Source: Paenibacillus sp. FSL H8-0079 (GTDB lineage Bacteria; Bacillota; Bacilli; Paenibacillales; Paenibacillaceae). Taken from it: DNA of 64,000 nucleotides. Below are positions 5,103 through 38,395 of this stretch, piece after piece. The stretch covers positions 3,286,001 to 3,350,000 of the forward strand of contig NZ_CP150300.1 in the NCBI RefSeq assembly GCF_037991315.1, given 5' to 3'. Both the position numbers and the translations under genes were made by a program. The stretch's first letter is position 1. The number at the start of each line of letters is the position of its first letter. The notes under the pieces were generated by a model that was given only the letters and a program-made list of their open reading frames with translations, ran no database searches and was not told the DNA's origin.

Positions 5103-5145
5103 TCTAATGAGAAAACTAATAACGTTAAGAGGGGGAATTCTTTCG

Positions 5146-6675: not shown

Positions 6676-6682
6676 TTGAAGC

Positions 6683-10038: not shown

Positions 10039-10101
10039 CGTTCTCACTCATTTCACTCATATAAGAAACTAATCCAGCCTTTGGCATTGGAGGTGGATGC
10101 A

Positions 10102-14642: not shown

Positions 14643-15998
14643 ATGAGAAAACACAAGTTCATGCTACTGAGCCTGGTATTTGCGGTCTTGTTGGTGATTG
14701 CTGCATGCAGTTCTGCACCTACCGCTCAACCCGAGCCGGAAAAGACAACACCACAGGAGGAACAAAAACCCGCGGAAACCGAGCCAAAGAATGAAAACTC
14801 CACGCCAGAAATGGACTTTGACATGGGTGGCAGAACGATCAAGGTTGTTGCTTGGTGGGACATGGAAATACAGGGGAATAACCCGGACAACATTCAACGT
14901 CTTGAGAATCTCGAAGCGCTGAAGAAAAAACACAACTTTAATATTGAATATGCTTCCATCGATTTTGGCGAATATCAGGAAAAGGTTGTTGCTTCCCTGA
15001 TGGCTGGTGAACCGCTTGGCGATCTGGTGAGACTGGGCAAAAACTATGCCATTCCGGCATTGACCAAACAGGATCTGTTATGGCCGGTGGATGATTATAT
15101 TAAAAACGACAAGGTATTCAACCAGAAAACAACCAAAGAATACATGCAGTATGAAGGCAAAGGTTACGGCTTTACCGAGGACCAGTCCTCGTTTATCAAC
15201 GGAATTTTCTATAATCGCACACTCATGCAAGAGCTCGGCTTGAAGCCACTTCAAGAGTATGTGGATGCCGATGAATGGAACTGGGATACGTTCATCAGTG
15301 TTGCCAAGCAAGCGAACAAGGATCGAAACAATGATGGCAAGCTAGACACTTGGGGACTCGCTCAAACGGGCTTGCTGGAACCGATTCTGTATTCCAACGA
15401 GGCTTCTCTGACCAAAGAAGATAAGCAGAACCTGGAAGATCCAAAAACGAAAGAAGCGTTGAACTTCCTGTCCAAACTGGCTACCGAGAAGGTCGGCAGA
15501 GCTTCTGAGGGCGGCGATTGGACAGAGCCATCCACGTTCTTCCGTCAAGGCAACACCCTGATGTATTCAGGTGCCATGTACGAAGTCGAAGGTATTATGA
15601 CGGATATGCAGGACTACGATATTGGTTTTGTACCGTTTCCAAAAGGTCCAAGTGCAACAGCGTATCACTCCGGTGAGTCACGTTACCAAGCTATAACGAT
15701 TCCAAAAGCGGTAGAGAATCCAGAACAACTGATGTACATCTGGGAGAAAATTAATGAGATCGAGTCGATCTATGAGTATCCAGGACAATCCACACTGGAG
15801 ACACATCTGACCGATGAAGCAGATATCAACAACGCCAGAGAGGTTGCGGAAGGTATGTTGGTTCTCGACCATAACACATTCCCGTCCTTGCCGTTCTGGG
15901 ATTTTGATGGGGAACTCAAAGAAGGGGTATCCGTATCTACGCTGATCGAGAAATACAAGGCTCCTTTCCAGGCTGCGATTGATGAGGTTTACAAATAA
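14643..15998 (+). CDS. Extracellular solute-binding lipoprotein, family 1
   Basis: A 451-aa sugar-binding lipoprotein, first gene of a ~14.7-kb operon. The signal ends in lipobox VIAAC (Cys22), followed by a Pro/Glu/Lys-rich spacer (about 24-55). The mature domain shows family-1 features: EKVVASLMAGEPLGDLVRLG, FYNRTLMQELGL and DRNNDGKLDTWGLAQ. ATG 14643 follows the ribosome site AGGGGGGAAG. A large stem-loop after its stop may protect its mRNA, giving excess binding protein over permeases. The sugar is unknown; the GH5 enzyme at the operon end and the xylan setting suggest a plant-wall oligosaccharide. Confidence 0.92.
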   Translation: MRKHKFMLLSLVFAVLLVIAACSSAPTAQPEPEKTTPQEEQKPAETEPKNENSTPEMDFDMGGRTIKVVAWWDMEIQGNNPDNIQRLENLEALKKKHNFNIEYASIDFGEYQEKVVASLMAGEPLGDLVRLGKNYAIPALTKQDLLWPVDDYIKNDKVFNQKTTKEYMQYEGKGYGFTEDQSSFINGIFYNRTLMQELGLKPLQEYVDADEWNWDTFISVAKQANKDRNNDGKLDTWGLAQTGLLEPILYSNEASLTKEDKQNLEDPKTKEALNFLSKLATEKVGRASEGGDWTEPSTFFRQGNTLMYSGAMYEVEGIMTDMQDYDIGFVPFPKGPSATAYHSGESRYQAITIPKAVENPEQLMYIWEKINEIESIYEYPGQSTLETHLTDEADINNAREVAEGMLVLDHNTFPSLPFWDFDGELKEGVSVSTLIEKYKAPFQAAIDEVYK

Positions 15999-16012
15999 GT
16001 ATCACGTTACAC

Positions 16013-16046
16013 GGGCAGAACGCACCAATGAAGGTGCGGTCTGTCC
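16013..16046 (+). repeat. Intercistronic stem-loop after the solute-binding gene
   Basis: A 14-bp stem with one mismatch and one wobble (GGGCAGAACGCACC with GGTGCGGTCTGTCC) has a 6-nt loop and no T-run. It is better explained as an mRNA-stabilising or processing element than as a terminator, since the operon continues. Confidence 0.7.
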
Positions 16047-16103
16047 GGGTTAGTCAATCGTTCAGTTCTCTCAACGCTTACAGGAAAGGGGATACATTCA
16101 AAC

Positions 16104-19001
16104 ATGCGGTCACGTAAGAAAAAGGGACTAATCCTGGTGCTTGTCCTGGCCTTGGTGCTCTCCATATGGACACTATATCCATCGCGGGATCGTAATCGGG
16201 GAACGGTACATTCGCTTGAGGACTTTGAGGCGGTATCGGGAACCGAGGATTCATTCAGTTATGAGCATTATCTGACTGCTCATGACAATACGGCCAAACC
16301 GGATGAAATTGTACGCATCGAAGGCGAATCTTATGTTCAGGCAGAGGATGGGGAATTTGAGGTTGTGCAAGGGTACGCCGGATTAGACGGAAATGCGGTA
16401 ATTACGCCGGAAACTGGAACCATTCGCTGGGATGTTCCCGTTCAAGTGAGCGGTTTGTACAACATTCGCATTCACTATTATCCCGTAGAAGGTAAAAGCT
16501 CCGGGATCGAACGCAGGCTTGAGCTTAATGGTAAGGTCCCGTTCAGAGGGGCCGATATTCTTCTGTTTGACAGGGTATGGGGGAATCGCGAGGATAACGT
16601 CCGGCAGGACGATCGTGGCAACGAGCTTAGACCAAGACAAGTGGAGCAGCCCGAATGGCAACTGACTTCCTTCAAGGACAGTGCAGGGTACTTTGAGGAA
16701 CCGTTTCAGTTTTATTTTGACAAAGGCAATCAGCAGTTATCGCTCACTTCATTAAGAGAGAGCATGGCGATTGATTATATCGAGTTGTATCAAGAAAGCG
16801 AAGTGCCGTCCTATGCAGAGCTGGAGCAGACCTATGCCTCACTCGGCTTGAAACAAGCCGCTCCTGTCATTCTGAAAGTACAGGGGGAGGAGGCTGTCAG
16901 CAAGTCATCTCCTACACTGGCACCGATCTCGGACCGATCAAGCCCTTCACTGGAGCCTTATAATGTATCGAAAATTCGGATGAACGCCATCGGGGGCATT
17001 AACTGGAAACTGCCGGGCGAATGGATTGAATGGGAAATAGATGTGCCTGAAGGCGGACTGTATCAACTGGCGCTTAAGGTGAAGCAGGATCAATTGCGTG
17101 GCATCTATGCCACCCGCAGTCTGACGATTAACGGTGAAGTTCCGTTTAAGGAATTGAAACGCATTCGATTTAACTACAGCCCGGCCTGGCAAACTCAGGT
17201 GTTGGGTTCGGGAGAGGATAAGCCATATCAGTTTCATCTTGAAAAAGGGAAACACCGAATCCGCATGACAGTTACACTTGGCGACATCGCTCCGCTGCTT
17301 CGGACGGTGGAATCCAGCGTGCTGGAACTGAATGAGATGTATCGCAAAATATTAATGATCACCTCCAACAGTCCGGACCCACTGCGGGATTACCAGCTGG
17401 AACGGCGCATTCCGGAGATGACGGAGGTGTTTGAACGACAAGCTGACACCTTGCGCTCCGTTGCAGATTACCTGGAAAAGGCCACGGGTGAGCAAAGTGA
17501 CAAAGTGGCCGTATTGCACGCCATGGTACTGCAGCTTGAAGATATGGCGGCCAGACCCGAGACGGTTCCCAAACGGCTGGATACGTTCAAAATTAATGTA
17601 GGCGGTCTCGGTACGTGGATTCTATCGGTACGTGAACAGCCGATTACGCTGGACTACCTTGTCGTGTCTCCGCCGGGTGAATCTCTGCCAAAAGCGGAGG
17701 CAAGCACCGTCCAGCAGGTGAAGCACGAACTGGGCGCATATGTTGCCTCGTACACCGAAGATTACGACAGCATTGGTAACGTGGAACAAAAGAAGGATGC
17801 CATCACCGTATGGATCACGACTGGACGGGATCAAGCCCAAGTACTGAAAGGCATGATCGACGATTCGTTTACCCCGGATACGGATGTGTCCGTGCAGTTA
17901 CGTCTCGTACCGCCTAATATTTTGCTGCCCGCAACGCTCTCGGGGGAAGGACCGGATGTAGCCATGCAGATGGGCGAAGACATTCCGGTGAACTATGCAA
18001 TGAGGAATGCGACAGCGGATCTGAGCCAGTTCCCCGATTTCGAGGAAATTTCAGGCAGGTTCCGTGAAAGCGGATTGACACCTTACCGCTACAACGACGG
18101 GGTATATGCCCTTCCGGAGCAGCAGCATTTTCCAATGTTATTTTACCGCAAAGATATTCTGAATGAACTGGGCATTGAACCGCCGAAAACGTGGCAGGAC
18201 GTATATAACACCATCACCGTGCTGCAGAAGCATAACATGGAGTTTTATCTGCCGATTGAGGATACGCTGAACAATGCCAATCTGGTTCCGAATTCAACTT
18301 TTGCCATGTTGTTATATCAGAATGACGGAACGTTCTACACCGAAGACCAGAAGAAAAGTGCACTGGATTCGGAGATTTCGATGGACGCTTTCAAACGATG
18401 GACGCAATTTTATACCAATTACAAGTTTCCACTCAAAGCCGACTTTCCGAATCGCTTCCGTACCGGGGAAATGCCAATCGGGATTGCTGATTACACTACG
18501 TATAACATGCTGACGGTTATGGCACCGGAAATCCGTAATCTCTGGGACTTTACGATTGTTCCGGGTACACAGCTTCCGGATGGCTCCATACGGCACGAAG
18601 TGGCCAGCGCAACAAGCGCGGTGATGATGCTCGAAAATGCCGACGACAAGGAAGCGGCGTGGAAGTTCATGAAGTGGTGGACTGATGAGCAGACCCAGAT
18701 TGAATACGGGAGAGAAATGGAAGGCCTTATGGGAGCGGCTGCCCGTTACCCGACGGCCAATATCGAAGCCTTGAAGCAATTGCCTTGGCCTGTGAAGGAT
18801 TATCAAAATCTCGAGAAACAATGGGAATGGGTACAGGGAATCCCGCAGCTTCCCGGAGGTTACTTCACGGGACGACATCTGGACAACGCTTTCCGCAAGG
18901 TGGTCAATGCTAATGAAAATCCGCGTGAAGCCTTATCGGACTATGTGTTGTACATTGATGATGAAATAGAGTTGAAACGCAAGGAATTTAATCTGAAATA
19001 G
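16104..19001 (+). CDS. Giant membrane-anchored solute-binding protein with two carbohydrate-binding-like modules
   Basis: A 965-aa protein, roughly twice the normal solute-binding protein size. An N-terminal hydrophobic helix (about 6-23) lacks a lipobox Cys and is probably an uncleaved anchor. Two related beta-sandwich-like modules follow, about 65-235 (IRIEGESYVQAEDG, ERRLELNGKVPF, IDYIELYQ) and 285-400 (INWKLPGEWIEWEIDVP, RSLTINGEVPF); they resemble CBM6/35-type folds. A helical stretch (410-490) leads to a family-1 binding domain (about 565-950; ALPEQQHFPMLFYRKDILNE). It may capture a polymer or oligosaccharide at the surface and hand it to the permeases. The fold calls are by eye. Confidence 0.85.
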   Translation: MRSRKKKGLILVLVLALVLSIWTLYPSRDRNRGTVHSLEDFEAVSGTEDSFSYEHYLTAHDNTAKPDEIVRIEGESYVQAEDGEFEVVQGYAGLDGNAVITPETGTIRWDVPVQVSGLYNIRIHYYPVEGKSSGIERRLELNGKVPFRGADILLFDRVWGNREDNVRQDDRGNELRPRQVEQPEWQLTSFKDSAGYFEEPFQFYFDKGNQQLSLTSLRESMAIDYIELYQESEVPSYAELEQTYASLGLKQAAPVILKVQGEEAVSKSSPTLAPISDRSSPSLEPYNVSKIRMNAIGGINWKLPGEWIEWEIDVPEGGLYQLALKVKQDQLRGIYATRSLTINGEVPFKELKRIRFNYSPAWQTQVLGSGEDKPYQFHLEKGKHRIRMTVTLGDIAPLLRTVESSVLELNEMYRKILMITSNSPDPLRDYQLERRIPEMTEVFERQADTLRSVADYLEKATGEQSDKVAVLHAMVLQLEDMAARPETVPKRLDTFKINVGGLGTWILSVREQPITLDYLVVSPPGESLPKAEASTVQQVKHELGAYVASYTEDYDSIGNVEQKKDAITVWITTGRDQAQVLKGMIDDSFTPDTDVSVQLRLVPPNILLPATLSGEGPDVAMQMGEDIPVNYAMRNATADLSQFPDFEEISGRFRESGLTPYRYNDGVYALPEQQHFPMLFYRKDILNELGIEPPKTWQDVYNTITVLQKHNMEFYLPIEDTLNNANLVPNSTFAMLLYQNDGTFYTEDQKKSALDSEISMDAFKRWTQFYTNYKFPLKADFPNRFRTGEMPIGIADYTTYNMLTVMAPEIRNLWDFTIVPGTQLPDGSIRHEVASATSAVMMLENADDKEAAWKFMKWWTDEQTQIEYGREMEGLMGAAARYPTANIEALKQLPWPVKDYQNLEKQWEWVQGIPQLPGGYFTGRHLDNAFRKVVNANENPREALSDYVLYIDDEIELKRKEFNLK

Positions 19002-19020
19002 AGGAAAGGGAGGGTAAAGG

Positions 19021-19977
19021 TTGCAAGTAAAAACAACCAAGACATCCGCCGCTCCTGCAATCCATGCGCGGCCGGTCAGCTGGTGGTCTCTCTTGAAGAG
19101 GGATCTGTACCTGAGCAGGCACTATTACATTTTGATGGCACCGTTCATGCTGATTTTCTTCATGTTTACGGTCATTCCGGTGGCGATCTCGCTGGGACTC
19201 AGCTTTTTTCACTTCAATATGCTGGAGCTGCCGCGATTTGTCGGCTGGCAGAACTATTCCCGGCTTTTCCTGAACGATGACGTATTTCTGATCGCGCTCA
19301 AAAACACGCTGCTTTTTGCCGTAATTACAGGCCCTCTCAGTTATATAGCCTGCTTTTTGTTTGCGTGGATCATCAATGAGCTGTCTCCTAAAATTCGGGC
19401 GGTCATGACGCTGGTTTTCTATGCCCCATCCATATCGGGCAACGTCTTTTTCATCTGGCTGATCATCTTCTCGGGTGACAGCTACGGGTATATGAATGGC
19501 TTCCTGATGCGCCTTGGCGTCGTACTGGAACCGATCCAATGGCTCGCAGACGAGAAGTATGTACTGGCAATCGTCATTATTGTACAGCTGTGGCTGAGCC
19601 TCGGAACCAGCTTCCTGGCCTTTATTGCAGGACTGCAAACCATTGATCGTTCTCTGGTTGAAGCAGGAACCGTAGACGGGATCAAAAACCGCTGGCAGGA
19701 GCTCTGGTACATCACCTTGCCTTCGATGAGACCGCAGCTGATGTTTGGTGCGGTAATGCAGATTACTGCTTCCTTCGCCGTAGCTGAGATCTCCATCGCA
19801 CTGGCAGGTTTCCCGAGCGTGAACTATGCGGCGCACACCGTTGTCACGCATCTGATGGACTTTGGAACCATTCGTTTCGAGATGGGGTATGCCTCGGCCA
19901 TCGCAACGGTCCTGTTTGCCCTGATGCTGGGTACAAACGTTTTCACGCAAAAAATGCTTAGAAAGATAGGTGAATGA
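19021..19977 (+). CDS. Carbohydrate ABC transporter permease (MalF/UgpA type), pair 1
   Basis: A 318-aa inner-membrane permease with about six transmembrane segments. The ATPase-docking EAA loop reads EAGTVDGIKNRWQELWYITLP, typical of carbohydrate permeases except for Gly in the EAA position. TTG 19021 is used; GAGGGTAAAGG is directly upstream. It pairs with the next gene (4-bp ATGA overlap). No ATPase gene is present, as usual for Firmicute sugar importers that share an MsmX-like subunit. Confidence 0.93.
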   Translation: MQVKTTKTSAAPAIHARPVSWWSLLKRDLYLSRHYYILMAPFMLIFFMFTVIPVAISLGLSFFHFNMLELPRFVGWQNYSRLFLNDDVFLIALKNTLLFAVITGPLSYIACFLFAWIINELSPKIRAVMTLVFYAPSISGNVFFIWLIIFSGDSYGYMNGFLMRLGVVLEPIQWLADEKYVLAIVIIVQLWLSLGTSFLAFIAGLQTIDRSLVEAGTVDGIKNRWQELWYITLPSMRPQLMFGAVMQITASFAVAEISIALAGFPSVNYAAHTVVTHLMDFGTIRFEMGYASAIATVLFALMLGTNVFTQKMLRKIGE

Positions 19978-20855
19978 CGATGACCAGCAAAGTACGTGCC
20001 GTGTTTGGCATGCCAAAAAGGCTTAATCGGTCATTTACCGTCAGCCTGATGTTATTTGCATTGCTGGGTGTGTTCGGCTCCTTTATGGTGCTTCCGCTCA
20101 TCTATGCTGTCAACAATGCATTCAAGCCGCTGGATGAGCTGTTTATTTTTCCGCCGCGCTTCTGGGTGAACAATCCGACAACGGAGAATTTTGCCGATCT
20201 GATCAACCTCATGGGCAATTCGTGGGTGCCGTTATCCCGCTATATTGCCAACACATTGCTCATTACGATACTTGGCACAGCGGGACATATTCTTTTTGCA
20301 TCTGCAGCAGCTTACCCGCTGGCGAAATATCGTTTTCCGGGTTCCAAAGTGTTGTTCACCATTGTCATTTTGTCCCTGATGTTCTCGCCGCATGTCACGG
20401 CGATTCCGAACTACATGGTCATGTCCTGGCTTGGCTGGATTAACACTCATGCGTCCATTATTGTGCCATCACTTGCGTTCTCACTGGGACTTTTCCTGAT
20501 GAAACAGTTCATGGAGCAGATTCCCGATGCTTTGCTGGAGGCAGCCAAAATCGACGGAGCCAATGAATACCGGATATTCTGGAGCATCGTGATGCCCAAT
20601 GTGAAGCCGGCATGGCTCACGCTCATGATCCTGCAGTTTCCAGCGTTATGGGGAACGGATGGCGGGAGCTTCATTTACAGTGAAAATCTCAAAACACTGC
20701 ATTATGCGCTCAGTCAGATTGTGCAGGGAGGGATTGCAAGAGCCGGTGTAGGTGCGGCTGTTGCCTTGCTGCTGATGATCGTACCGATCACTCTGTTTAT
20801 CATCTCTCAGAGCAGTGTTATGCAGACGATGGCCACTTCGGGCATGAAAGAGTAG
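19974..20855 (+). CDS. Carbohydrate ABC transporter permease (MalG type), pair 1
   Basis: A 293-aa permease of the MalG class. The EAA loop reads EAAKIDGANEYRIFWSIVMP, followed by a further transmembrane segment. The start overlaps the stop of the previous permease (ATGA at 19974), so the two are translationally coupled. Segments near residues 20-40, 85-110, 120-140 and 255-280 are hydrophobic. It forms the heterodimeric pore with the gene at 19021. Confidence 0.93.
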   Translation: MTMTSKVRAVFGMPKRLNRSFTVSLMLFALLGVFGSFMVLPLIYAVNNAFKPLDELFIFPPRFWVNNPTTENFADLINLMGNSWVPLSRYIANTLLITILGTAGHILFASAAAYPLAKYRFPGSKVLFTIVILSLMFSPHVTAIPNYMVMSWLGWINTHASIIVPSLAFSLGLFLMKQFMEQIPDALLEAAKIDGANEYRIFWSIVMPNVKPAWLTLMILQFPALWGTDGGSFIYSENLKTLHYALSQIVQGGIARAGVGAAVALLLMIVPITLFIISQSSVMQTMATSGMKE

Positions 20856-20870
20856 AAAGGAGGCAGCGAG

Positions 20871-22334
20871 GTGCGGAGAAGCACATGGAAAAAACGTAAA
20901 TCGATCATCATGGGCATGATCTGCCTCCTGTTGTTCGTTCAAGAGGCGCCCTATGTGAGTGCAGACGGTAAAACGGATGCGTATCATTATTCCTTCTGGG
21001 GTGACGCAGTTCCTTCACCAGCGGCATATGAGGCAACAACCATTATCACCGGCAAGAAGCTGAACACAACTCCTATGAAAGAGCCAAGTGACATGCATGT
21101 TACCGCCAATCAGCACGTCTTTGTGCTCGATTCGGGCAATGGCCGCATCATTGAGATGGATCGCAACTTCAAGCTGGTACGGACGATTGATTCATTTGAG
21201 CAGGAAGGTAAGGAAGATCATTTTAAAAATCCACAGGGATTGTACGTCACGGAAAAAGGCCATCTGCTGGTTGCTGATTCGGATAATCAACGGGTGGTGC
21301 ATCTGGATGAACAGGGGAAGCTGGTCAAGATCGTGTCTGAACCAAAATCGGATCTGCTTAAAGAAGACTTCCAGTTTAAACCGATGCGGATTGTTATGGA
21401 CAAAGGGGAGCGTATCTACGTCATGGCTGAAGGCGTATTTGATGGATTCATGGAGTTCAGCGCCGATGGGACGTTCTCTTCCTTCATTGGAGCGAACAGA
21501 GTTCAGGTGGACCCGGTGGAATATCTGTGGAAACGGTTTGCAACACGGGAGCAGCGCAGCCAGATGGTCATGTTCACTCCGACAGAATTTACCAATCTGG
21601 ATATGGATGAAGAGGGCTTTATCTACGCCACAAGCGGGGATCGCGGCAAAGATCCGGTCAAAAAGCTGAATGCTCAGGGGACAGACATCCTGCGCAGAGA
21701 AGGCTATCAGACGCCGCAAGGTGACTTGATGTATACGCAGGAAGCCGGCCCATCTCGCCTGATTGATGTGGATGTGGGGGACAGTGACATGTATTCCGTA
21801 CTGGATTCCAGCAAGGGCCGAATCTTCACCTACAATGGAGACGGATATCTGCTCCATATTTTCGGCGGCATCGGGAATCGCCTCGGCCTGTTTAATACAC
21901 CTGTTGCCCTGGAACGTGCGGGAGACCGGATGTTAGTTCTGGATAAAGCGCTTGGTGAAATCACCGTCTTTCAAACAACTGAATACGGACGTACGCTCCA
22001 CGAAGCGGTTCGCAGCTACTATAACGGTGATGAAGATCAATCTTCGGTGCTGTTTGCCCAAGCAGCCGAGATGAACGCTAACTTGGAATATGCGTATGCG
22101 GGAATTGGCAAAGCATTGCTTCGTCAGAAGGAATACGCCGATTCTGCGAAATATTTCAAGCGCAGCATGGAGCCCAAAGGGTATTCCAAAGCTTTTCTTT
22201 TGTACCGCAAAGAGCTGATGCGTGAGCATTTTTCATGGATGATGTCCGGTATATTCCTGGCTGTTGCTGCGATTGTCACCGTCATCATCGTTCGCAGGCA
22301 GAAAAGGAGGACTACGAATGCAGGCATTAAGTAA
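20871..22334 (+). CDS. Membrane-anchored NHL-repeat beta-propeller with TPR-like domain
   Basis: A 487-aa extracytoplasmic protein. A signal peptide (about 1-32, ending VSADG) precedes NHL-type repeats (about 65-365; VFVLDSGNGRIIEMD, LLVADSDNQRVVHLD, YSVLDSSKGRIFTYN). Two TPR-like helical pairs follow (about 385-440; YAYAGIGKALLRQKEYADSAKYF), then one transmembrane helix near 455-475 and a short basic tail (RRQKRR). The topology suggests the propeller outside and the tail in the cytosol. In a sugar import operon this may be an assembly or scaffold factor (inference). GTG 20871 follows AAAGGAGG. Confidence 0.88.
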   Translation: MRRSTWKKRKSIIMGMICLLLFVQEAPYVSADGKTDAYHYSFWGDAVPSPAAYEATTIITGKKLNTTPMKEPSDMHVTANQHVFVLDSGNGRIIEMDRNFKLVRTIDSFEQEGKEDHFKNPQGLYVTEKGHLLVADSDNQRVVHLDEQGKLVKIVSEPKSDLLKEDFQFKPMRIVMDKGERIYVMAEGVFDGFMEFSADGTFSSFIGANRVQVDPVEYLWKRFATREQRSQMVMFTPTEFTNLDMDEEGFIYATSGDRGKDPVKKLNAQGTDILRREGYQTPQGDLMYTQEAGPSRLIDVDVGDSDMYSVLDSSKGRIFTYNGDGYLLHIFGGIGNRLGLFNTPVALERAGDRMLVLDKALGEITVFQTTEYGRTLHEAVRSYYNGDEDQSSVLFAQAAEMNANLEYAYAGIGKALLRQKEYADSAKYFKRSMEPKGYSKAFLLYRKELMREHFSWMMSGIFLAVAAIVTVIIVRRQKRRTTNAGIK

Positions 22335-22953
22335 GCAACTATATCAGTACCCGCTGCATCTGATTTTTCATCCGTTTGACGGATACTGGGAACTGAAATA
22401 TGAACGGAACCAGAGAAACTCACTGCTGATTGCTTTCATGATCCTGGTGCTTCTGGTCATCACCAAAATTTTGCATGCCCAGTACAGCGGTTTTCTCATT
22501 AATCTCAGTAATCCAAAGTACCTGAACAGTCTGCTCGAAATGGTATATGTCATTATACCGGTACTGTTTTGGTGTGTGGCTAACTGGTCGTTAACCACAT
22601 TGATGGACGGGGAAGGCAAGTTCTCCGAAATTTTCATGTCAACGTGTTTTGCACTGGTACCATTGTTACTCATTCATTTTCCATGGATCTGGCTGAGTCT
22701 TGTGATCTCTGCGCAGGAAACTGCCTTTTATTATTTCTCCAATGCACTCGCCGTTGCATGGACGGTATATCTGTTATTTGTGGGGAATATGACGGTTCAT
22801 CAGTACACACCAGCCAAAACGGTGCTCACGATGCTGCTGACACTTGTAGCGATGGCGTTTATGGCATTTCTGTGCCTGTTATTCTTCAGTCTTGTACAGC
22901 AGATTGTATCGTTTGTTGTAACCATCTATCAGGAATTAGTGCTTCGGGGCTAA
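22318..22953 (+). CDS. Yip1-like multi-pass membrane protein
   Basis: A 211-aa integral membrane protein resembling the YIP1 domain family. About five hydrophobic segments are visible (near residues 40-60, 78-95, 105-125, 135-155, 165-190). The segment VIIPVLFWCVANWSLTTLMDG, with an N-W-x3-T pattern, is typical of bacterial Yip1-like proteins. ATG 22318 is used because AAAAGGAGG lies just upstream; it overlaps the NHL gene by 17 bp, indicating translational coupling. Function unknown; the fixed position between the NHL protein and the DUF5696-type lipoprotein suggests a membrane complex. Confidence 0.85.
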   Translation: MQALSKQLYQYPLHLIFHPFDGYWELKYERNQRNSLLIAFMILVLLVITKILHAQYSGFLINLSNPKYLNSLLEMVYVIIPVLFWCVANWSLTTLMDGEGKFSEIFMSTCFALVPLLLIHFPWIWLSLVISAQETAFYYFSNALAVAWTVYLLFVGNMTVHQYTPAKTVLTMLLTLVAMAFMAFLCLLFFSLVQQIVSFVVTIYQELVLRG

Positions 22954-22970
22954 GGGAGGAGGAAATTGTT

Positions 22971-25547
22971 ATGAATTATACCGTAGCCAAAAAAATAACA
23001 GGAATGCTGCTCGCGGGAAGTCTGCTTCTTGGCGGTTGTCAATTCTCGCCAACACCGCTCGCTCACGAGACAGTGACTGCCGCAGATCCGACGGACTTTC
23101 CCTCCCTGCCTCCCGGAGAGAATCTGAAATCATCGTTCAGCGATGTCCGCCTTCCCGGCATGGTAGGCATTGCGCAGAATGCTGCGCTGCAGTTGTTCAT
23201 TAACGAAGAGACTGCCGAAATTGCAGTGATTCACACGCAGAGTGGCCAGATCTGGCGCAGCAATCCTGCAGATCGTGAGCAGGATGGGGTTGCAGCCGGG
23301 ATAAACAAAGACCTTTTGTCATCACAAACGAAGCTCAGCTTTTTCAACAGCCTCGGACAGAGCAGCACCGTGAATTCCTTCACGGATAGTGTTGCACACA
23401 AGCAAATAAGCTACGAGGTGCTGCCAAGCGGCATGCGGGTCCACTACCAGTTTGGAAGCACTGAGCGATCCATAGAAGACTTGCCGATGAAGATCAGCAA
23501 GGAGCGATTTGAACAAAAGCTGCTTGCACAGCTAGACAAGGCCGGGCAACGGGCCTTGAAGGTCGGCTATGCGGAAGACAAGGATGAAGGCGCTTACGTC
23601 CGGATTGATAAGGCGATGCAAGGATTGCAATTGTCCCGGGCCTTGAAGGCTTTTGACACAGCCGGTTACACATCGGAGGATCTGGCTCAGGATCATGCCG
23701 AGTTTGGCATTGAAGAGGAACGAAGTGGACCACGGCTGTTTATGCTTACGATGGAATATGAGCTGGATGGAAAGGATCTGCTTGTACGTGTTCCGTCCTC
23801 AGGCATTCATTTTCCGGAGGAATATCCGATCAACAGCATATCTGTAATGGATTATTTCGGGGCTGGGGGTTCAGAAGAAGAGGGATCCCTACTGGTGCCG
23901 GACGGTTCGGGAGCGCTGATCCATTTTAACAATGGCAAGCTGCAGTATCCTGCCTATCAACAAGATATATACGGACCGGATATGACCATGAAACTACGGG
24001 AAGCAAGTTCGAATGAAGCCAGAGCCAGGTTGCCGGTATTTGGACTGATTCGGAAAGAGGGGGCTTTCCTGGGCATTATTGAAGAAGGGGATGCCGTTGC
24101 AGTTGTGAATGCCGATATCAGCGGCAAACTGAACAGTTACAACAACGTATATCCAAGCTTCTATGTAGTGAACAAGAGCGATGTGACGCTTCAGGCAAGT
24201 GATATGGTTCGTACACTTCCCAAATTCCAGAAGAACCCGACTGTGTCTGATTTCGTCGTTCGATATGCTTTTGTCGGGGCGGATAAAGCCTCGTACTCGG
24301 GACTTGCATCACTCTATCGGGATTATCTGGTGCAAAACGGCGGACTTCCCGAGCTGAATGCCAGCAAGGAGCAGAGTAACGTTCCCTTTTATCTGCAATT
24401 GTTCGGTGGCATGACAACAAGGCAGCATATGCTGGGCATACCGTATGATTCAACGGAGGCTTTGACCACATTTGATGAAGCCAAAAACATTCTCTCCGCC
24501 TTGACGGAGAAAAAGGTATCCAATATTCAGGTTCGCTATGCGGGATGGCTTAACGGCGGACTTCATCATCGACTGCCAGATTCCATCCAAGTAGACGGCG
24601 CGGTAGGCGGGAAAAAGGGATTGCGGGAATTCAGCGCATATACACAAGAAGCGGGCATCGGTTTCTATCCCGATATCGCTCTGCTGAATGTGCAATCCAA
24701 AAAAGGGTTTAAACCGTCCAAAGAAGCTTCACGCACATTAACTCAGGAACCGGCGGTCTTATATCCGATGAACCAGGCCATCCAGCGGCGGGACCGGGAT
24801 CGTTCACCATCCTATGTGCTTTCGCCCAACATGCTGGAGGACGTGACGGCAGACATGTTAGATGAGTTGAGGTCCCTTCAAAAGGATGGACTGTCACTAA
24901 GCCTGAATGATCTGGCAGCTCAGTTAAACAGCGATATGAATCCGAAAAAGCTGGTGGACCGAACCCAAGCGCTTGGCTCCGTGAAGAAGGCACTTGAACA
25001 GATCGGACAGCAGTCTGGCTCGCTTGTTGCTGAAGGTGGGAACGCTTATGCCCTGCCGTATGTAACTGGTCTGACAGATGCGCCAATGACCAGCAGTCGT
25101 TTCAAGCTGGAGGATGAAGAGATTCCGTTCTATCAGCTCGTTGTACACGGCAGCATCGGTTATACGGGGACGCCATACAATCTCTCCACATATACCAATG
25201 CAAGGCAATATGTGTTGAAGCTGATTGAATATGGAGCCAGTCCTTACTTTGCATGGTTCAATGCGCCAAACCATGTTGTGAAAGAAACGGATTATGATGA
25301 TCTCTACGCGGCGAATTATGAACAATGGATCGATCTGGCTGCCGAGATTTACAACGAGGTGAACCAGGTGAACCAGCCGTTTGCCGGACGTTCCATGATG
25401 TCCCATGAATCCCTGGAGGAGGGCGTCTTCCGGACAACATATGAAGGTGGCGGGTTCGTAATCGTCAATTATAACGACTTCCCTGTAGAAGTTAACAACG
25501 ATACAGTGGAAGCCCAAAGCTATGTGACTGGTGGTGAGCAGCTCTGA
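22971..25547 (+). CDS. Large DUF5696-type lipoprotein with putative TIM-barrel hydrolase domain
   Basis: An 858-aa lipoprotein: signal with lipobox LLGGC (Cys23), a beta-rich N-terminal region (about 60-330), then a region that looks like an (alpha/beta)8 barrel (about 490-790; NIQVRYAGWLNGGLHH, GIGFYPDIALLN, LSLNDLAAQL, LVAEGGNAYALPYVTG). Asp in SLNDLA and Glu in VAEGGNA are candidate catalytic residues. I believe it matches the DUF5696 family found in Paenibacillus, and the barrel recalls glycosidase clan folds, but no activity can be assigned. ATG 22971 follows GGGAGGAGG. Its stop overlaps a CTG that may start the next gene. Confidence 0.82.
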   Translation: MNYTVAKKITGMLLAGSLLLGGCQFSPTPLAHETVTAADPTDFPSLPPGENLKSSFSDVRLPGMVGIAQNAALQLFINEETAEIAVIHTQSGQIWRSNPADREQDGVAAGINKDLLSSQTKLSFFNSLGQSSTVNSFTDSVAHKQISYEVLPSGMRVHYQFGSTERSIEDLPMKISKERFEQKLLAQLDKAGQRALKVGYAEDKDEGAYVRIDKAMQGLQLSRALKAFDTAGYTSEDLAQDHAEFGIEEERSGPRLFMLTMEYELDGKDLLVRVPSSGIHFPEEYPINSISVMDYFGAGGSEEEGSLLVPDGSGALIHFNNGKLQYPAYQQDIYGPDMTMKLREASSNEARARLPVFGLIRKEGAFLGIIEEGDAVAVVNADISGKLNSYNNVYPSFYVVNKSDVTLQASDMVRTLPKFQKNPTVSDFVVRYAFVGADKASYSGLASLYRDYLVQNGGLPELNASKEQSNVPFYLQLFGGMTTRQHMLGIPYDSTEALTTFDEAKNILSALTEKKVSNIQVRYAGWLNGGLHHRLPDSIQVDGAVGGKKGLREFSAYTQEAGIGFYPDIALLNVQSKKGFKPSKEASRTLTQEPAVLYPMNQAIQRRDRDRSPSYVLSPNMLEDVTADMLDELRSLQKDGLSLSLNDLAAQLNSDMNPKKLVDRTQALGSVKKALEQIGQQSGSLVAEGGNAYALPYVTGLTDAPMTSSRFKLEDEEIPFYQLVVHGSIGYTGTPYNLSTYTNARQYVLKLIEYGASPYFAWFNAPNHVVKETDYDDLYAANYEQWIDLAAEIYNEVNQVNQPFAGRSMMSHESLEEGVFRTTYEGGGFVIVNYNDFPVEVNNDTVEAQSYVTGGEQL

Positions 25548-26446
25548 AGACGCTCCTGAAATGGAAATGGGGAAGTCGTACGTATGCTCAGCAGAAAGCC
25601 ATGTGGGGCGTAATCTACGTGCTTCCCTGGCTCATTGGTTTTGTGTTGTTTTTCTTCATTCCGCTGTTAGCCTCTCTGCGATACAGCATGAGTACAATTC
25701 AGGCTAACGCGGAAGGCATAGCAATTCAGTTCAACGGTGTTGCCAATTATATTCAGGCGCTGACCGTCAATACAAGCTTTAACCGTGCGTTAATTGAGGC
25801 GATCACAGACGTGCTCATCAACGTACCGCTTATCGTTATATTCAGTCTGTTCCTTGCCGTCATCCTGAATCAGAAGTTCAGGGGCCGGGCTGTAGCGCGG
25901 TCGATCTTTTTCCTGCCCGTTATTCTGGCATCGGGAGTGATTATGACACTGGAGAGCACCAGCTTGATTGAAGCGGTTAATCAGAGCAGCACAGGTGGAA
26001 GCTCACTCGGGACATTTGAACTCGAAAATCTGATGGTTAACGCCGGAGTGAGCGATTGGATCGTTACGTATCTGAGCAGCGCCGTAGATCGGATCTATCA
26101 GATCGTCAGTCAATCCGGTGTACAGATTTTGATCTTTTTGGCAGGGATCCAGACGATTTCCCCTCAACTGTATGAGGCTTCGAAGATGGAAGGGGCAACG
26201 GGTTATGAAGCCTTTTGGAAAATTACGTTCCCAATGGTCAGCCCGCTTATTTTTGTCAATGCGATCTATACAATCATTGATTCGTTTGCCAATAACGCCA
26301 TGACGGAACTGATCCGGGATACCGGCTTCGTCAAATTTGACTTTGGATTAAGTTCTGCCATGGCATGGGTCTACTTTCTGGCCATTGCCATCATTCTGGT
26401 TATCGTAAACATCATTTTCTCGAAGCGAGTCTTCTATCAAGATTAG
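25544..26446 (+). CDS. Carbohydrate ABC transporter permease, pair 2 (probable CTG start)
   Basis: A permease of about 300 aa with an EAA loop EASKMEGATGYEAFWKITFP and the typical opening VLPWLIGFVLFFFIPL. The first in-frame ATG (25601) leaves only about seven residues before TM1 and has no ribosome site. The frame is open upstream to a CTG at 25544, which overlaps the preceding stop as CTGA and has GGTGGTGAG 5 nt ahead. From there the protein gains a basic 19-residue N tail like its relatives. CTG initiation is inferred; the conservative start is 25601. Confidence 0.85.
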   Translation: MKTLLKWKWGSRTYAQQKAMWGVIYVLPWLIGFVLFFFIPLLASLRYSMSTIQANAEGIAIQFNGVANYIQALTVNTSFNRALIEAITDVLINVPLIVIFSLFLAVILNQKFRGRAVARSIFFLPVILASGVIMTLESTSLIEAVNQSSTGGSSLGTFELENLMVNAGVSDWIVTYLSSAVDRIYQIVSQSGVQILIFLAGIQTISPQLYEASKMEGATGYEAFWKITFPMVSPLIFVNAIYTIIDSFANNAMTELIRDTGFVKFDFGLSSAMAWVYFLAIAIILVIVNIIFSKRVFYQD

Positions 26447-26463
26447 AAAGGAGGGTGTCCCAC

Positions 26464-27411
26464 GTGACAACATCACGATTATTATCGCTGGAGCATTGGA
26501 AAGGCTGGCTGTGGGCCATGATCCGATTCGTTCTGATTACCGGGCTTTCCTTCGTTATCCTGTTTCCCATATTTCAGAAGGTTTCCACATCCATCAAAGC
26601 TAAAGGTGATCTGTATTCGGCAGTGGTGGTGTGGATTCCACAGAACTTCTCCATCGACAATTTCAAAGAGGCGATACGCGTAATGGATTACTGGGCAACG
26701 CTGTTTAATACGTTTGCCCTGTCTGCAACGACTACACTGTTGACTACAGCATCCTGTGCACTTGCAGGATACGGATTCGCCAGACTGAAATTCAGGGGAA
26801 GCAACTGGTTGTTTGCAGGTGTAATTCTGACGATTCTTGTACCGCCAACGACCATTCTCATTCCGGTATACCTGAATCTGAAAAGCTTTGATCTCATGGG
26901 GCTTATGACGCTTATAGCCGGCAAACCTGTTAATTTGCTTAATACCTATTGGCCGTTTATTCTGACGGCGATTACGGCCAATTCACTTAAGGCCGGCTTG
27001 TACATCTTTATCTTCCGGCAATTCTTCAGAGGTATTCCGAAGGAAGTGGAGGAAGCGGCCTATGTGGACGGCGCGGGCATCGGACGAACATTTTCAAGAA
27101 TCATGCTGCCCAATGCCATTCCGTCCATGGTAACAGTCATGCTGTTTTCCTTCGTATGGCAGTGGAACGACAGCTTTTATACGACGACTTATCTGACTTC
27201 AAGTAAAGTCATGTCGACTCAGTTATCGTCCCTTCCGTATAATCTGGCCCAGCAGGTTACTGACGGTGCAGCTTCCCAGGCCGATCCGTTCTATTTGAGC
27301 ATGATCCAAGATACAGGAATTCTTCTTGCCATTCTGCCTTTGATCATCATCTATTTGTTTGTGCAACGATATTTCGTAGAGAGTGTAGAGCGTACGGGAA
27401 TCGTCGGTTAA
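26464..27411 (+). CDS. Carbohydrate ABC transporter permease (MalG type), pair 2
   Basis: A 315-aa permease with EAA loop EAAYVDGAGIGRTFSRIMLP and six expected transmembrane segments. GTG 26464 has an excellent ribosome site (AAAGGAGGGTG) and begins 17 bp after the previous permease gene. With the gene at 25544 it forms a second complete permease heterodimer in the same operon, which is unusual. Confidence 0.93.
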   Translation: MTTSRLLSLEHWKGWLWAMIRFVLITGLSFVILFPIFQKVSTSIKAKGDLYSAVVVWIPQNFSIDNFKEAIRVMDYWATLFNTFALSATTTLLTTASCALAGYGFARLKFRGSNWLFAGVILTILVPPTTILIPVYLNLKSFDLMGLMTLIAGKPVNLLNTYWPFILTAITANSLKAGLYIFIFRQFFRGIPKEVEEAAYVDGAGIGRTFSRIMLPNAIPSMVTVMLFSFVWQWNDSFYTTTYLTSSKVMSTQLSSLPYNLAQQVTDGAASQADPFYLSMIQDTGILLAILPLIIIYLFVQRYFVESVERTGIVG

Positions 27412-27469
27412 GTTAAGTTCTTCTGTACGTTTGGAGTGGGATCAGACTGGAAGAGGGAGGAGGAACTTC

Positions 27470-27688
27470 ATGCAATATTCCATCTGTGAAAAGGGGGCAT
27501 GTAACGATCTCATGAACGTCTGCTCACAGCAGGGGGATCCTTCCCTGCGCAGGATCCCCCTGCTGGTGTGGAACGGGCTGCGGGAGCGGGCGCCGACCCT
27601 GAGCGATCTGTTTGATCAGAGATACTCTGACGGAGCTTACCTCGCATTATTGCAAGGCAATATATCAGATCAGGAGGAATTAAAGTGA
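27470..27688 (+). CDS. Small protein of unknown function (72 aa)
   Basis: A possible 72-aa protein with a strong ribosome site (GGGAGGAGG) 6 nt before ATG 27470. Its stop overlaps the GTG start of the GH5 gene (GTGA), which favours real translation and coupling. It has four Cys in the first 31 residues (Cys5, Cys10, Cys17 counted from MQYSICEKGAC) and no signal peptide. A 14-bp perfect inverted repeat lies in its middle. I recognise no family. It could instead be an untranslated spacer. Confidence 0.45.
   Translation: MQYSICEKGACNDLMNVCSQQGDPSLRRIPLLVWNGLRERAPTLSDLFDQRYSDGAYLALLQGNISDQEELK
27527..27565 (+). repeat. Perfect 14-bp inverted repeat (hairpin) between transporter and GH5 genes
   Basis: CAGCAGGGGGATCC (27527-27540) and its exact complement (27552-27565) flank an 11-nt loop. 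No T-run follows. The RNA hairpin would be very stable and may be a processing or stability boundary separating membrane protein genes from the secreted enzyme. Confidence 0.85.
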
Positions 27689-29391
27689 AGAAGTTCATGA
27701 CATCTTGTAAACTTGTACTCATTCTGGCTTTATTGATCACAATTGCTCCATGGGGCGGCAGCCGTGCCGAAGCATGGGTGGGCATGCCTATGGGCAAGCT
27801 GCACGTAAACGGCAAAAACCTGGTGAACAGCAACAACCAGCCTGTGCTACTGAACGGTTGGCATCAACCCTCAGGTGCCTACTGGACATATCAGGACAGC
27901 AATTATTATCTCAATCTGCACGGCAATAACCGTCATGCAGCTACACTGGCTTATCTGAAAGACATTACCGATACTTTTGCTGACACCAGCGCGAAGTACG
28001 GAAGCAATCATGGCTGGAATATGAATCAGGTACGTCTGTTCATCGATCGTCAGGACATGGGAGATGTGGCTGCTGGTACATATAACTTTGCCGGTGTGCA
28101 GACCGTTACGCAAAATGTAATTATTCCGTACATTCAATATGCCAAAACAAAAGGTGTCTATGTTGTCCTGGGACTGGACTTCACATTGAAGGATGATCAG
28201 GCAACAACACCTGCCAACCTGCAAAAATTCAACGAAATCTGGGGTTATCTCGCTTCACGCCCGGAGATCAAAAGTGCAGACAACGTTCACTTCGAACTGA
28301 TCAACGAACCGGTGAAATCCTATGCCAATGGACATTGGGGTGGATACAACGGGGAAAATGACTTTGTGGATCACTGGAATGACTTGCGTAATTTCCAAAA
28401 TTCCATGATTTCAACAATTCGTAGCAAAGGTGCGGACAACGTCATCTGGGCGGCAGGTCTGGGATACAACCAATTTTACAGCTTGACGGCAAGCCATCCA
28501 TTGACTGATCCGCTCAATAACTATGGATATGCGGTTCACTGGTACCCTGGTTATGGCGCATATGACAACTTCTCTATCCTGCAAGACCAGTGGAATACCA
28601 ACGTGAAGGCAGCTGCTGACAAATATCCGATTAATATTACCGAGGTAACCTGGTTCAAAAACAAACCTGGCGATTCGGCCTATTGGAACTTGTTTAATGG
28701 TAGCAATGAAGGTTTTGGCACCAATACCAAAACGATTTTCAACGCATCAGGCAATGTCAGCATTGCAGCTCATATGAACGGATTCATTCTAAGTGAAGGA
28801 CCACGAAGCTCCTTTGCCGACCCAACGGCTGGACTGAAATGGGATGGAGATGCTTCACGGAGTGCCATGGGACGATTCCTGTTCAACTGGTACCATGAAC
28901 GTGCCCAGACTTATCCGGGCAGTGGACAAGGTGGCGGACCGACAACGGGTCTTGTATCCGGTGCAACTTATAAAATCGTAGCCCGGCATTCCAACAAAGT
29001 TGTTGATGTTCCTGGTGGTCAAAATGAAAATAATCTTCAGCTCCAGCAGTGGAGCGATCTGGGCGGTAACCCTCAGAAGTGGGTGTTGAATCAACTCGCT
29101 GGTGGGAATTACACTTTGACAAGTGTGAACTCGCCAGACAAAGTTATCGACATTCGGAACGGTACGAATAACAACGGTGAAGTGGTTCAGCTCATGAGTA
29201 ATCTGAATACCACTGCACAGCACTTCAAAGTCAATGATCTGGGCAATGGATATTGGAGCATTATCAATGTAAGCAGCAACAAGGCGGTGGAGGTAACAGC
29301 GTCCTCTACGACAGATGGCGCGAAATTGCAACAAAACGATTTTACGAATGCAACCAACCAGCAATGGAAGTTCATAGCTGTCAATAACTAA
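27685..29391 (+). CDS. Secreted GH5 glycoside hydrolase with ricin B-type lectin (CBM13-like) domain
   Basis: A 568-aa secreted enzyme. The signal peptide (1-30) ends SRAEA. The GH5 TIM barrel (about 32-410) has the acid/base Glu208 in FELINEPV and the nucleophile Glu320 in ITEVTWF; AVHWYPG supplies the usual His/Tyr. A Gly/Pro linker (GSGQGGGPTTG) leads to a ricin-type trefoil (about 425-568) with repeated Q-W motifs (LQLQQWSDLGGNPQKW, NQQWKFI). GH5 spans many specificities (glucan, mannan, xylan), so the substrate is open. GTG 27685 has AGGAGG upstream. It is the last gene of the long operon. Confidence 0.93.
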   Translation: MKKFMTSCKLVLILALLITIAPWGGSRAEAWVGMPMGKLHVNGKNLVNSNNQPVLLNGWHQPSGAYWTYQDSNYYLNLHGNNRHAATLAYLKDITDTFADTSAKYGSNHGWNMNQVRLFIDRQDMGDVAAGTYNFAGVQTVTQNVIIPYIQYAKTKGVYVVLGLDFTLKDDQATTPANLQKFNEIWGYLASRPEIKSADNVHFELINEPVKSYANGHWGGYNGENDFVDHWNDLRNFQNSMISTIRSKGADNVIWAAGLGYNQFYSLTASHPLTDPLNNYGYAVHWYPGYGAYDNFSILQDQWNTNVKAAADKYPINITEVTWFKNKPGDSAYWNLFNGSNEGFGTNTKTIFNASGNVSIAAHMNGFILSEGPRSSFADPTAGLKWDGDASRSAMGRFLFNWYHERAQTYPGSGQGGGPTTGLVSGATYKIVARHSNKVVDVPGGQNENNLQLQQWSDLGGNPQKWVLNQLAGGNYTLTSVNSPDKVIDIRNGTNNNGEVVQLMSNLNTTAQHFKVNDLGNGYWSIINVSSNKAVEVTASSTTDGAKLQQNDFTNATNQQWKFIAVNN

Positions 29392-32699: not shown

Positions 32700-33539
32700 A
32701 TGAGAAAGCTGGTATGGTTAACGTTAATCGCCATAGTTGTTAGTCTAAGTGCCTGTTCAGCCAGTAACTCTGAATTAAATGATGATATGGTATTCGTCGA
32801 AGGAGGGGCCTTGAAGAGCAGTACATCTAGTCAAATTGAACGAGATGAAGCTCTGGATTCCTTCTATGTTGGCAAATACGAAGTGACTCAACAAGAATGG
32901 ACGGAGGTCATGGGGGAGAACCCATCTGGCTTCAAGGGAGATGACCTGCCCGTTGAGATGGTGAGCTGGTATGACGCCGTGGAATACTGTAATCAAAAGA
33001 GCATCAAAGAGAACCTGAAACCTTATTACAATATAGACAAAGACAATCAGGACACGAATAATCACAATGAAAATGACAATATAAAATGGAATGTAACGAT
33101 TAATGAGGATGCTAACGGCTACCGTTTACCAACAGAAGCAGAATGGGAGTACGCTGCAAGCGGAGGTCAAAAGAGCTTAGATTACACCTACAGTGGAAGT
33201 AATAATCCCGATGAAGTGGCTTGGTACTGGAAAAATGCTGGTGACAACGTACTGACTGGTGACTGGAGCTGGCCCGCTATTGAGAGCAATCGTAATCAAA
33301 CCCAAAAGGTCGGTACCCAGAAGCCAAATGAGTTAGGAATCTATGATATGTCTGGAAACGTGAGAGAATGGTGCTGGGACTGGTACAGTGATTCAGAGCG
33401 TGCAGATCATTCCTGGCGAGTAGTAAAAGGCGGTGGCTGGATTGGCGGCGTCAATAACAATGAAATCTCATTCCGAGGTAAATTTGATGCGAATGGTTAT
33501 GGTCCTGATCAAGGATTTCGAATCGTGCGTGGAGAATAA
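32700..33539 (+). CDS. SUMF1/FGE-fold lipoprotein, probably non-catalytic
   Basis: A 279-aa lipoprotein (lipobox SLSAC, Cys19) with a formylglycine-generating-enzyme fold: MVFVEGGAL, YEVTQQEWTEVMG, GYRLPTEAEWEYAASGG, LGIYDMSGNVREWCWDWY and DQGFRIVR. The copper-binding Cys pair of true FGE is missing; the matching stretch reads VVKGGGWIGGVNNNEISFRG. So it is unlikely to mature sulfatases, and none is encoded nearby. As an exported lipoprotein in a xylanase operon it may bind sugar or peptidoglycan (inference). ATG 32700 follows AAAGGAGG. Confidence 0.9.
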   Translation: MRKLVWLTLIAIVVSLSACSASNSELNDDMVFVEGGALKSSTSSQIERDEALDSFYVGKYEVTQQEWTEVMGENPSGFKGDDLPVEMVSWYDAVEYCNQKSIKENLKPYYNIDKDNQDTNNHNENDNIKWNVTINEDANGYRLPTEAEWEYAASGGQKSLDYTYSGSNNPDEVAWYWKNAGDNVLTGDWSWPAIESNRNQTQKVGTQKPNELGIYDMSGNVREWCWDWYSDSERADHSWRVVKGGGWIGGVNNNEISFRGKFDANGYGPDQGFRIVRGE

Positions 33540-38306: not shown

Positions 38307-38395
38307 GAGGACCTTAAATGTATATATTTTGTAACCGCATACATTTATTCATACTAAAAACAGTAAGACATACCACTTCCAAGGAGGGCAAGTAC

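Follow-up and report, generated by a model that had tools for sequence, protein, structure and literature searches.

A conserved block of eight or nine genes with two permease pairs, a giant binding protein and a DUF5696 lipoprotein, shared by Paenibacillus and other Gram-positive plant-fibre bacteria

The closest described systems to the one presented here are CUT1-type importers, which share an MsmX/UgpC-type ATPase, and Gram-positive polysaccharide utilization loci (gpPULs), which, as far as is known, carry one ordinary importer. To our knowledge, little is understood of how fibre-degrading Gram-positive bacteria of soil, rumen and gut take up large or branched glycan fragments, beyond the importer with one solute-binding protein (SBP) and two permeases. 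Here, we analysed a window of 64,000 nucleotides, bases 3286001-3350000 of the 6.7-Mb single-contig genome of Paenibacillus sp. FSL H8-0079 (NZ_CP150300.1), which contains nine tightly spaced genes on the plus strand (14643-27411 of the window). These genes encode an SBP lipoprotein (SBP1), a giant SBP (BIGSBP), the permease pairs A1/A2 and B1/B2, an NHL beta-propeller protein, a Yip1-domain protein and a DUF5696 lipoprotein; we know of no transport role for the extra families of this block. Many Gram-positive plant-fibre bacteria share this fixed set of eight or nine genes; the genome analysed here contains it twice, and one copy is in the window. Like CUT1 importers, the block combines an SBP lipoprotein and a two-permease heterodimer with EAA motif with an ATPase encoded elsewhere; unlike them, it has two permease pairs in one conserved unit. 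The two SBPs, the two permease pairs and the NHL, Yip1 and DUF5696 proteins had been named as a tight run in a prediction made from the DNA letters (the original prediction), and all of them are present and supported by Pfam.

A second full copy with the same gene order (L003) lies in the same genome, which has two DUF5696 and two Yip1 matches in total, all within the two blocks. Hidden Markov models were built from both in-genome copies and then refined on their matches, and the 102 loci compared comprised the window, L003, the closest 80 named loci among the matches listed and 20 stretches from divergent members of the phylum. All nine genes were present in 90 of these loci, SBP1 alone was absent in 5, and more was absent in 7: L048 and L100 begin at the end of a contig, L077 spans a contig of 3.3 kb, the L123 sequence breaks off inside the NHL-Yip1 gene, and L116, L120 and L121 are stretches without BIGSBP-A1-A2. 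A lack of co-conservation of the six central genes in other genomes had been named beforehand as what would refute the original prediction, and the central genes were found to be co-conserved in order over the phylum. A Butyrivibrio fibrisolvens plasmid, for example, carries a block that reads, in the names of its record, SBP, two permeases, NHL, YIP1, DUF5696, two permeases, SBP, SBP, and that adjoins a glycoside hydrolase family 43 (GH43) gene and a two-component system. The paralogous copy and the recurrence of the gene order over the phylum rule out chance clustering, and the matches in other genomes rule out an oddity confined to the window.

Among the named matches listed, the window DUF5696 protein comes closest to those of two Paenibacillus xylanexedens records and of Paenibacillus sp. 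OVF10 (99%); several block genes of the OVF10 locus (L047) are split into two or more frames, possibly through sequencing errors. In a number of relatives, the SBP1 gene follows that of permease B2. In L115 (10498-18000), several SBP1-like genes stand in a row after B2, as if one importer alternated among many receptors.

Co-occurrence was assessed in 398 genomes of Bacillota for DUF5696, the BIGSBP N-terminus and NHL, Yip1 not being among the genes counted genome-wide, with strong matches defined by E<1e-100, E<=1e-33 and E<=1e-37, respectively, and at most three first-look candidates scored in nearly all genomes. Weaker matches, found in 9, 8 and 38 more genomes, respectively, were left out; those to DUF5696 in G302 and G325 are short and just above the Pfam cut-off. 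Strong DUF5696 matches occurred in 37 of the 398 genomes (~9%), strong BIGSBP N-termini in the same 37 and two more, and strong NHL matches in the same 37 and one more, so that none of the 398 had strong DUF5696 without BIGSBP N-terminus and NHL (Fisher p about 1e-48 to 1e-51, uncorrected for kinship). The contigs with the two extra BIGSBP matches measure 3.8 and 4.3 kb, and the extra NHL match is at the end of an 8.5-kb contig; because the contigs are short or the match is at a contig end, the rest of a block would be invisible there. DUF5696 passed the cut-off in none of 14 control genomes outside Bacillota, which gave two sub-cut-off matches. We found no description of the block in the accessible parts of the open-licence PMC literature, including PMC4765114, PMC12827396, PMC6484121, PMC8106489, PMC5698469, PMC10318527, PMC8990778, PMC6344614 and PMC13206771, and DUF5696 is mentioned nowhere in the open-licence PMC papers searched.

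Judged by sequence comparison, the unit appears to consist of a nearly constant module A (BIGSBP and A1/A2) and a variable module B (NHL-Yip1, DUF5696, pair B and SBP1), a split that the original prediction missed. Median pairwise identities across 56 of 79 diverse loci, i.e., those with nine separate open reading frames (ORFs; fused NHL-Yip1 loci left out), were 70% for A1, 71% for A2, 56% for B1, 55% for B2, 55% for BIGSBP (64% for its SBP domain), 53% for Yip1, 44% for NHL, 39% for DUF5696 and 31% for SBP1. The two in-genome copies likewise share 72% (A1), 70% (A2), 59% (SBP domain), 35% (DUF5696) and 34% (SBP1) identity. Modules A and B exchange order as whole units in L124, L128 and L131, and mirror-tree partial correlations were 0.59 for SBP1-B2 and 0.43 for both A1-A2 and NHL-DUF5696. 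Eight multi-copy genomes outside the genus of the window contained 60 DUF5696 versus 34 BIGSBP matches covering at least 60% of the query (35 with an omitted weak BIGSBP match in G082:C4, E 3e-18), with DUF5696 in excess in five, equal in three and fewer in none; these assemblies are fragmented, and a gene may be counted twice or missed. Up to 15 DUF5696 matches occurred in one genome (G082, likewise fragmented). The identity gradient, the copy numbers, the unit swaps and the SBP1-B2 correlation together point to a constant module A that is shared by exchangeable modules B.

Within module B, the NHL and Yip1 proteins form a single polypeptide in 16 loci, and also in L138 and L142; all four fused proteins scanned with Pfam contain NHL, Yip1 and TPR, the last being weak in L109 and clear in the others. 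In the window, the Yip1 domain (PF04893) scored 50.0 bits against a cut-off of 28.6 and was found in the ORF counted from 22264. Of the predicted beta-propeller/TPR architecture, the NHL part holds; the TPR match of the window copy is weak (E 0.17), whereas some relatives have clear ones (up to 4.9e-6). Hydropathy places transmembrane (TM) stretches of the NHL protein at residues 11-31 and 453-478, and a basic tail follows the C-terminal helix; the propeller is probably outside and the tail inside. Given a single C-terminal TM helix with a basic tail, the NHL protein should end inside, at the place where the N-terminus of Yip1 would be joined, and the fusion fits this orientation, which we infer.

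The nearest solved chain to SBP1 is an arabino-oligosaccharide-binding protein (6rjy, E 5e-13), and SBP1 is the putative receptor that varies and sets substrate specificity. For BIGSBP, the two modules expected at the front of the 965-aa protein appear as beta-rich domains (residues 43-204 and 230-364; DSSP on an AlphaFold2 (AF2) model), with a jelly-roll match to 5x7g (E 7.7e-9). Golvesin_C matched all 27 relatives at E<=1 (best 2.2e-6; window copy 0.019) and CBM_35 matched 23 of the 27 (best 2.7e-8; window copy 0.14, sub-cut-off). Residues 611-872 match SBP_bac_8, and this SBP fold is plain MBP-like; the fold-search matches listed for BIGSBP are SBP matches. Short weak matches to the second jelly roll (E 2e-5 to 9e-4) were seen in ORFs of 179-332 aa (G135:C118:73201, G062:C11:16560, G165:C3:119328 and G101:C77:14512), at distances of about 4 to 9 kb from copies of DUF5696, and these small ORFs are perhaps stand-alone jelly-roll subunits.

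BPD_transp_1 was found in all four permeases, and the EAA motif columns E, A, D/E (D in A1), G and P are conserved at 98-100% in A1 and 94-100% in A2 (95 sequences each) and at 89-100% in B1 and 96-100% in B2 (101 sequences each). The block encodes no ATPase, as had been predicted, which is ordinary: one match in the genome passed the cut-off of NF008653 (481 bits; next 313.5). We take NF008653/PRK11650 to be UgpC, and this single UgpC-type gene elsewhere in the genome rules out the missing ATPase as a special feature. By CUT1 criteria, each pair thus has two BPD_transp_1 proteins with EAA, there is an SBP_bac_1/8-type SBP, and a UgpC-type ATPase is present in the genome, its pairing with the permeases being predicted. 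Across the 102 loci and L135-L142, L142 was the only one whose ORFs included a UgpC-like ATPase at E<=1e-60 beside the block, its own protein being the query. There, on a Paenibacillus cellulosilyticus plasmid (NZ_CP054609.1, 5534-28581), the UgpC gene directly precedes a block with an NHL-Yip1 fusion, and four LLM flavin oxidoreductases, aldo/keto reductases and two SBPs accompany it; its cargo may be non-glycan.

The genes next to the block give an indication of its cargo. We hand-picked 67 proteins, one per locus from the 79 diverse loci (12 left out), mostly the nearest downstream gene on the same strand and in some cases one on the other strand or further along. This tally contained 19 GH10, 8 GH30_2, 7 RicinB (GH5-like group), 3 GH5, 2 GH26, 2 GH28 and 2 GH43 proteins. 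One example each of GH95, GH38, GH9, GH20, a pectic acid lyase and an alginate lyase was also seen. Xylan enzymes are therefore commonest, and several glycans would be served. GH43 accounted for 13 of 75 further flanking genes, also hand-picked. L003 is followed by a GH26 enzyme, which points to mannan. The surroundings of the block in the window make up a xylan/arabinoxylan locus. On its upstream side, Pfam identifies a pair of GH43 enzymes and another SBP, together with one histidine kinase and two response regulators of the AraC type; on its downstream side are a GH5-like/RicinB enzyme, GH8, an esterase and GH11. The cargo of this copy is most likely an arabinoxylan-derived oligosaccharide, and the adjoining histidine kinase and AraC-type response regulator are its probable controllers.

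The block had also been expected to end in a secreted GH5. The product at 27685 matches no GH family in Pfam, its best GH5-type PDB matches are weak (E 0.004 and 0.009), and its gene lies outside the conserved unit; since the downstream gene varies among loci, this enzyme is ruled out as a unit member.

Whether DUF5696 is an enzyme or a receptor bears directly on how the block would work. Its fold, a beta-sandwich, a TIM barrel and a C-terminal beta domain, has the layout of GH129 (for the domain order of a GH129-like enzyme from Zobellia, see the accessible part of PMC5698469). Identity to the GH129/GH101 glycosidases (NagBb, 5wzn; Zobellia GH129-like enzyme, 5opq) is 16-17%, and unlike these, DUF5696 is a membrane lipoprotein in a transporter unit that keeps the acids at the expected catalytic positions only in part. 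We take the ends of barrel strands 4 and 5 to be the location of the GH101/GH129 catalytic acids. With strands assigned from sequence and DSSP and no superposition, the strand-4 end carries an acid in 46 of 59 DUF5696 sequences (Asp in 45) and the strand-5 end Asp/Glu in 28. No acidic residue is invariant in the 59 sequences, D633, D693 and E731 being retained in 56 to 58. According to the part of PMC5698469 available to us, Asp435 of NagBb corresponds to Asp486 of the Zobellia enzyme, where four acids are needed. At the position of the NagBb HLDGW Asp (changed in the 5wzq mutant), DUF5696 has T, S, A, V, L and others, and an acid in 2 of 59.

That DUF5696 is an active, membrane-bound, GH129-related glycosidase that trims glycans before import is improbable in our estimation, given the lack of an invariant acid, the loss of the strand-4 and strand-5 acids in 13 and 31 of the 59 sequences, respectively, and the rarity of an acid at the HLDGW position; the trimming claim of the original prediction is thus not supported so far. 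The window protein, for its part, has both acids, D625 (strand 4) and E666 (strand 5), and because Asp is present in 45 of 59 at strand 4 and Asp/Glu in 28 of 59 at strand 5, some or many DUF5696 proteins may be active enzymes, which counts against a receptor role. PF11308 (GH129) is not among the matches of the window DUF5696 at 0.001, had 0 matches in 149 phylum genomes or any control genome, and GH129 relatives were not found in plasmids either. Because no such relatives were found for a profile-profile test, the catalytic-residue argument rests on one alignment and strand order. We lean only tentatively towards a mainly non-catalytic receptor, since the counterpart of NagBb Asp435 in DUF5696 could not be located without a superposition and since catalytic residues can shift position among relatives, as in the Zobellia enzyme.

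Taken together, a surface-to-membrane glycan machine is the leading reading because gene order is co-conserved, NHL and Yip1 are fused in 16 loci, and polysaccharide-degrading enzymes often lie downstream. We tentatively favour, at slightly below an even chance, a membrane machine of modules A and B for the uptake of oligosaccharides cut from polysaccharides. Module A would be its nearly constant chassis, in which BIGSBP, tethered to the membrane, would present an SBP domain along with its two jelly rolls. Module B would be the exchangeable, substrate-specific part: SBP1 and DUF5696 would recognise a particular glycan, DUF5696 acting mainly as a non-catalytic, GH129-like glycan receptor at the membrane face, and the NHL/TPR propeller joined to Yip1 would be a scaffold linking surface proteins to the permeases. 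Both permease pairs would be powered by a common UgpC/MsmX-type ATPase encoded elsewhere. Gene order, co-occurrence, the NHL-Yip1 fusion, the EAA motifs and the predicted folds are the observations from which we infer that the parts work jointly. A stronger form, a four-permease double-ABC complex in which BIGSBP and A1/A2 are the constant, shared engine or docking base for several exchangeable importers, each with an enzyme-like DUF5696 receptor and a propeller-Yip1 scaffold, is possible but doubtful.

An alternative is that two ordinary, independent ABC importers for separate oligosaccharide classes share an operon with accessory proteins and form no joint complex. In favour of this, an SBP and an EAA motif are present for each pair, some loci have the modules separated, and the SBP part of BIGSBP has a plain MBP-like fold. 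We nevertheless consider this unlikely, as co-occurrence is without counter-example in 37 genomes, the NHL-Yip1-DUF5696 genes are given no role, and the BIGSBP SBP domain is 64% identical, against 70% for the A permeases and twice the value for SBP1, a constancy unneeded in a free substrate receptor. Alternatively, module A could be a sensor, with BIGSBP and A1/A2 reading a common signal, either glycan occupancy or flux, for a two-component system while SBP1 and B1/B2 import. A1/A2 and the BIGSBP SBP domain are highly conserved across loci with differing neighbour enzymes, a histidine kinase and a response regulator adjoin both the window and Butyrivibrio blocks (the synteny maps do not cover two-component genes), and module A is outnumbered by DUF5696 (34 to 60) in the eight multi-copy genomes. 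The EAA coupling motif is, however, kept at 94-100% in A1/A2, as in working importers, and a sensor role is very doubtful.

Several observations pull against the joint machine itself. In L116, L120, L121 and L138, NHL-Yip1-DUF5696-pair B is present while BIGSBP and pair A are missing, and BIGSBP was not found elsewhere on the contigs G062:C7, G082:C89 and G040:C29 of module-A-less loci; because of these loci, the modules need not be co-transcribed. The mirror-tree value of BIGSBP-B1 is 0.43, across the module split, and the pairs are not independent. In the four genomes of the window's genus, DUF5696 and BIGSBP are equal in number (2/2, 2/2, 3/3 and 2/2), and because of this plain co-inheritance also fits. 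The first gene after L110, L127, L130 and L132 is not a carbohydrate enzyme, and the L142 block is set among flavin oxidoreductases instead of glycosidases; because of these neighbours, not every block need serve glycans. No further fusion among the nine genes was found, so that a complex is deduced from the NHL-Yip1 fusion and co-occurrence. The original prediction was right and understated in what it observed and is partly supported in its interpretation: a surface-to-membrane glycan machine is supported in kind by gene order, the fusion and GH10/GH30_2 neighbours, and trimming stays unproven and a two-module extension is needed.

Coordinates of the block and its neighbours are given in Table 1. 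The intergenic distances from SBP1 through DUF5696 are, in order, 105, 19, -4, 15, -17 and 17 nt, with overlaps of 4 nt between A1 and A2 and 17 nt between NHL and Yip1. B1 overlaps DUF5696 by 4 nt only with a CTG start (first ATG at 25601), and in the paralogous locus it begins at such a 4-nt overlap; the true start of B2 may lie further inside its ORF, the end of which is 273 nt from the RicinB enzyme. Promoter-like sites numbered 13 versus 19.3 in shuffles and terminator-like sites 23 versus 13.9, many of the latter within genes. Because promoter-like sites are below shuffles and many terminator-like sites are intragenic, the scan does not settle the transcription units.

Table 1. Genes of the block and neighbouring features in the window.
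Feature	Position	Strand	Basis
SBP1 lipoprotein, 451 aa	14643..15998	+	Pfam SBP_bac_1 2.3e-20; identity and position in relatives
BIGSBP, 965 aa, membrane-anchored	16104..19001	+	Hydrophobic N-terminus, two beta-rich (jelly-roll) domains, helical bundle, MBP-fold SBP
Permease A1, TTG start	19021..19977	+	Pfam BPD_transp_1; EAA columns
Permease A2	19974..20855	+	Pfam BPD_transp_1; EAA columns
NHL beta-propeller and TPR protein, signal sequence, C-terminal TM helix	20871..22334	+	Pfam NHL 7e-11; hydropathy
Yip1-domain multi-pass membrane protein	22318..22953	+	Pfam Yip1 4.2e-13; NHL fusions
DUF5696 lipoprotein, 858 aa, lipobox LLGG-C, GH129-fold barrel	22971..25547	+	Pfam DUF5696 5e-214
Permease B1, start uncertain	25544..26446	+	Pfam BPD_transp_1; EAA columns; paralogue
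Permease B2, ORF from first ATG	26365..27411	+	Pfam BPD_transp_1; EAA columns
Secreted GH5-like enzyme with RicinB lectin; neighbour, non-core	27685..29391	+	Pfam RicinB 2e-27
Histidine kinase and AraC-type response regulator; neighbour	10081..13469	+	Pfam
Two GH43 enzymes; neighbours	5107..8233	+	Pfam
GH8	29479	-	Pfam
GH11	31926		Pfam

Three further features of the window were recorded. An SBP-looking protein of 577 aa with a lipoprotein-like start (38318-40048) adjoins a permease pair and has 0 Pfam matches at 0.001. A protein with an FGE-sulfatase domain (32700-33539) lies between the GH11 xylanase and a response regulator, and a GH3 enzyme with three S-layer homology stretches (52254-54515) is probably a cell-surface glycosidase.

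Set beside known systems, the block differs from CUT1 importers further in its membrane-anchored SBP with two jelly-roll domains and in three extra surface or membrane proteins that co-occur with it at the genome level (Yip1 not counted). It resembles gpPULs, a term used in the accessible part of PMC12827396, in that transporter genes lie beside glycosidases and regulators, and differs from them in its fixed block of two permease pairs. If the favoured machine is real, it would name the components of glycan uptake concretely enough to be tested, assign functions to DUF5696 and bacterial Yip1, and explain why receptors at the membrane resemble enzymes. We know of no homologous part common to the block and the SusC/SusD system of Bacteroidetes, and no Pfam match to TonB-dependent SusC or to SusD was seen among the window proteins scanned, no search having been aimed at them. 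The two would be alike in outline, with surface glycan receptors and a conserved membrane core and with specificity in variable parts, and unlike in that ABC permeases in the one membrane would take the place of a channel in an outer membrane. The double-ABC complex, if true, would be a Gram-positive functional counterpart of SusCD, multiplexed in one cell.

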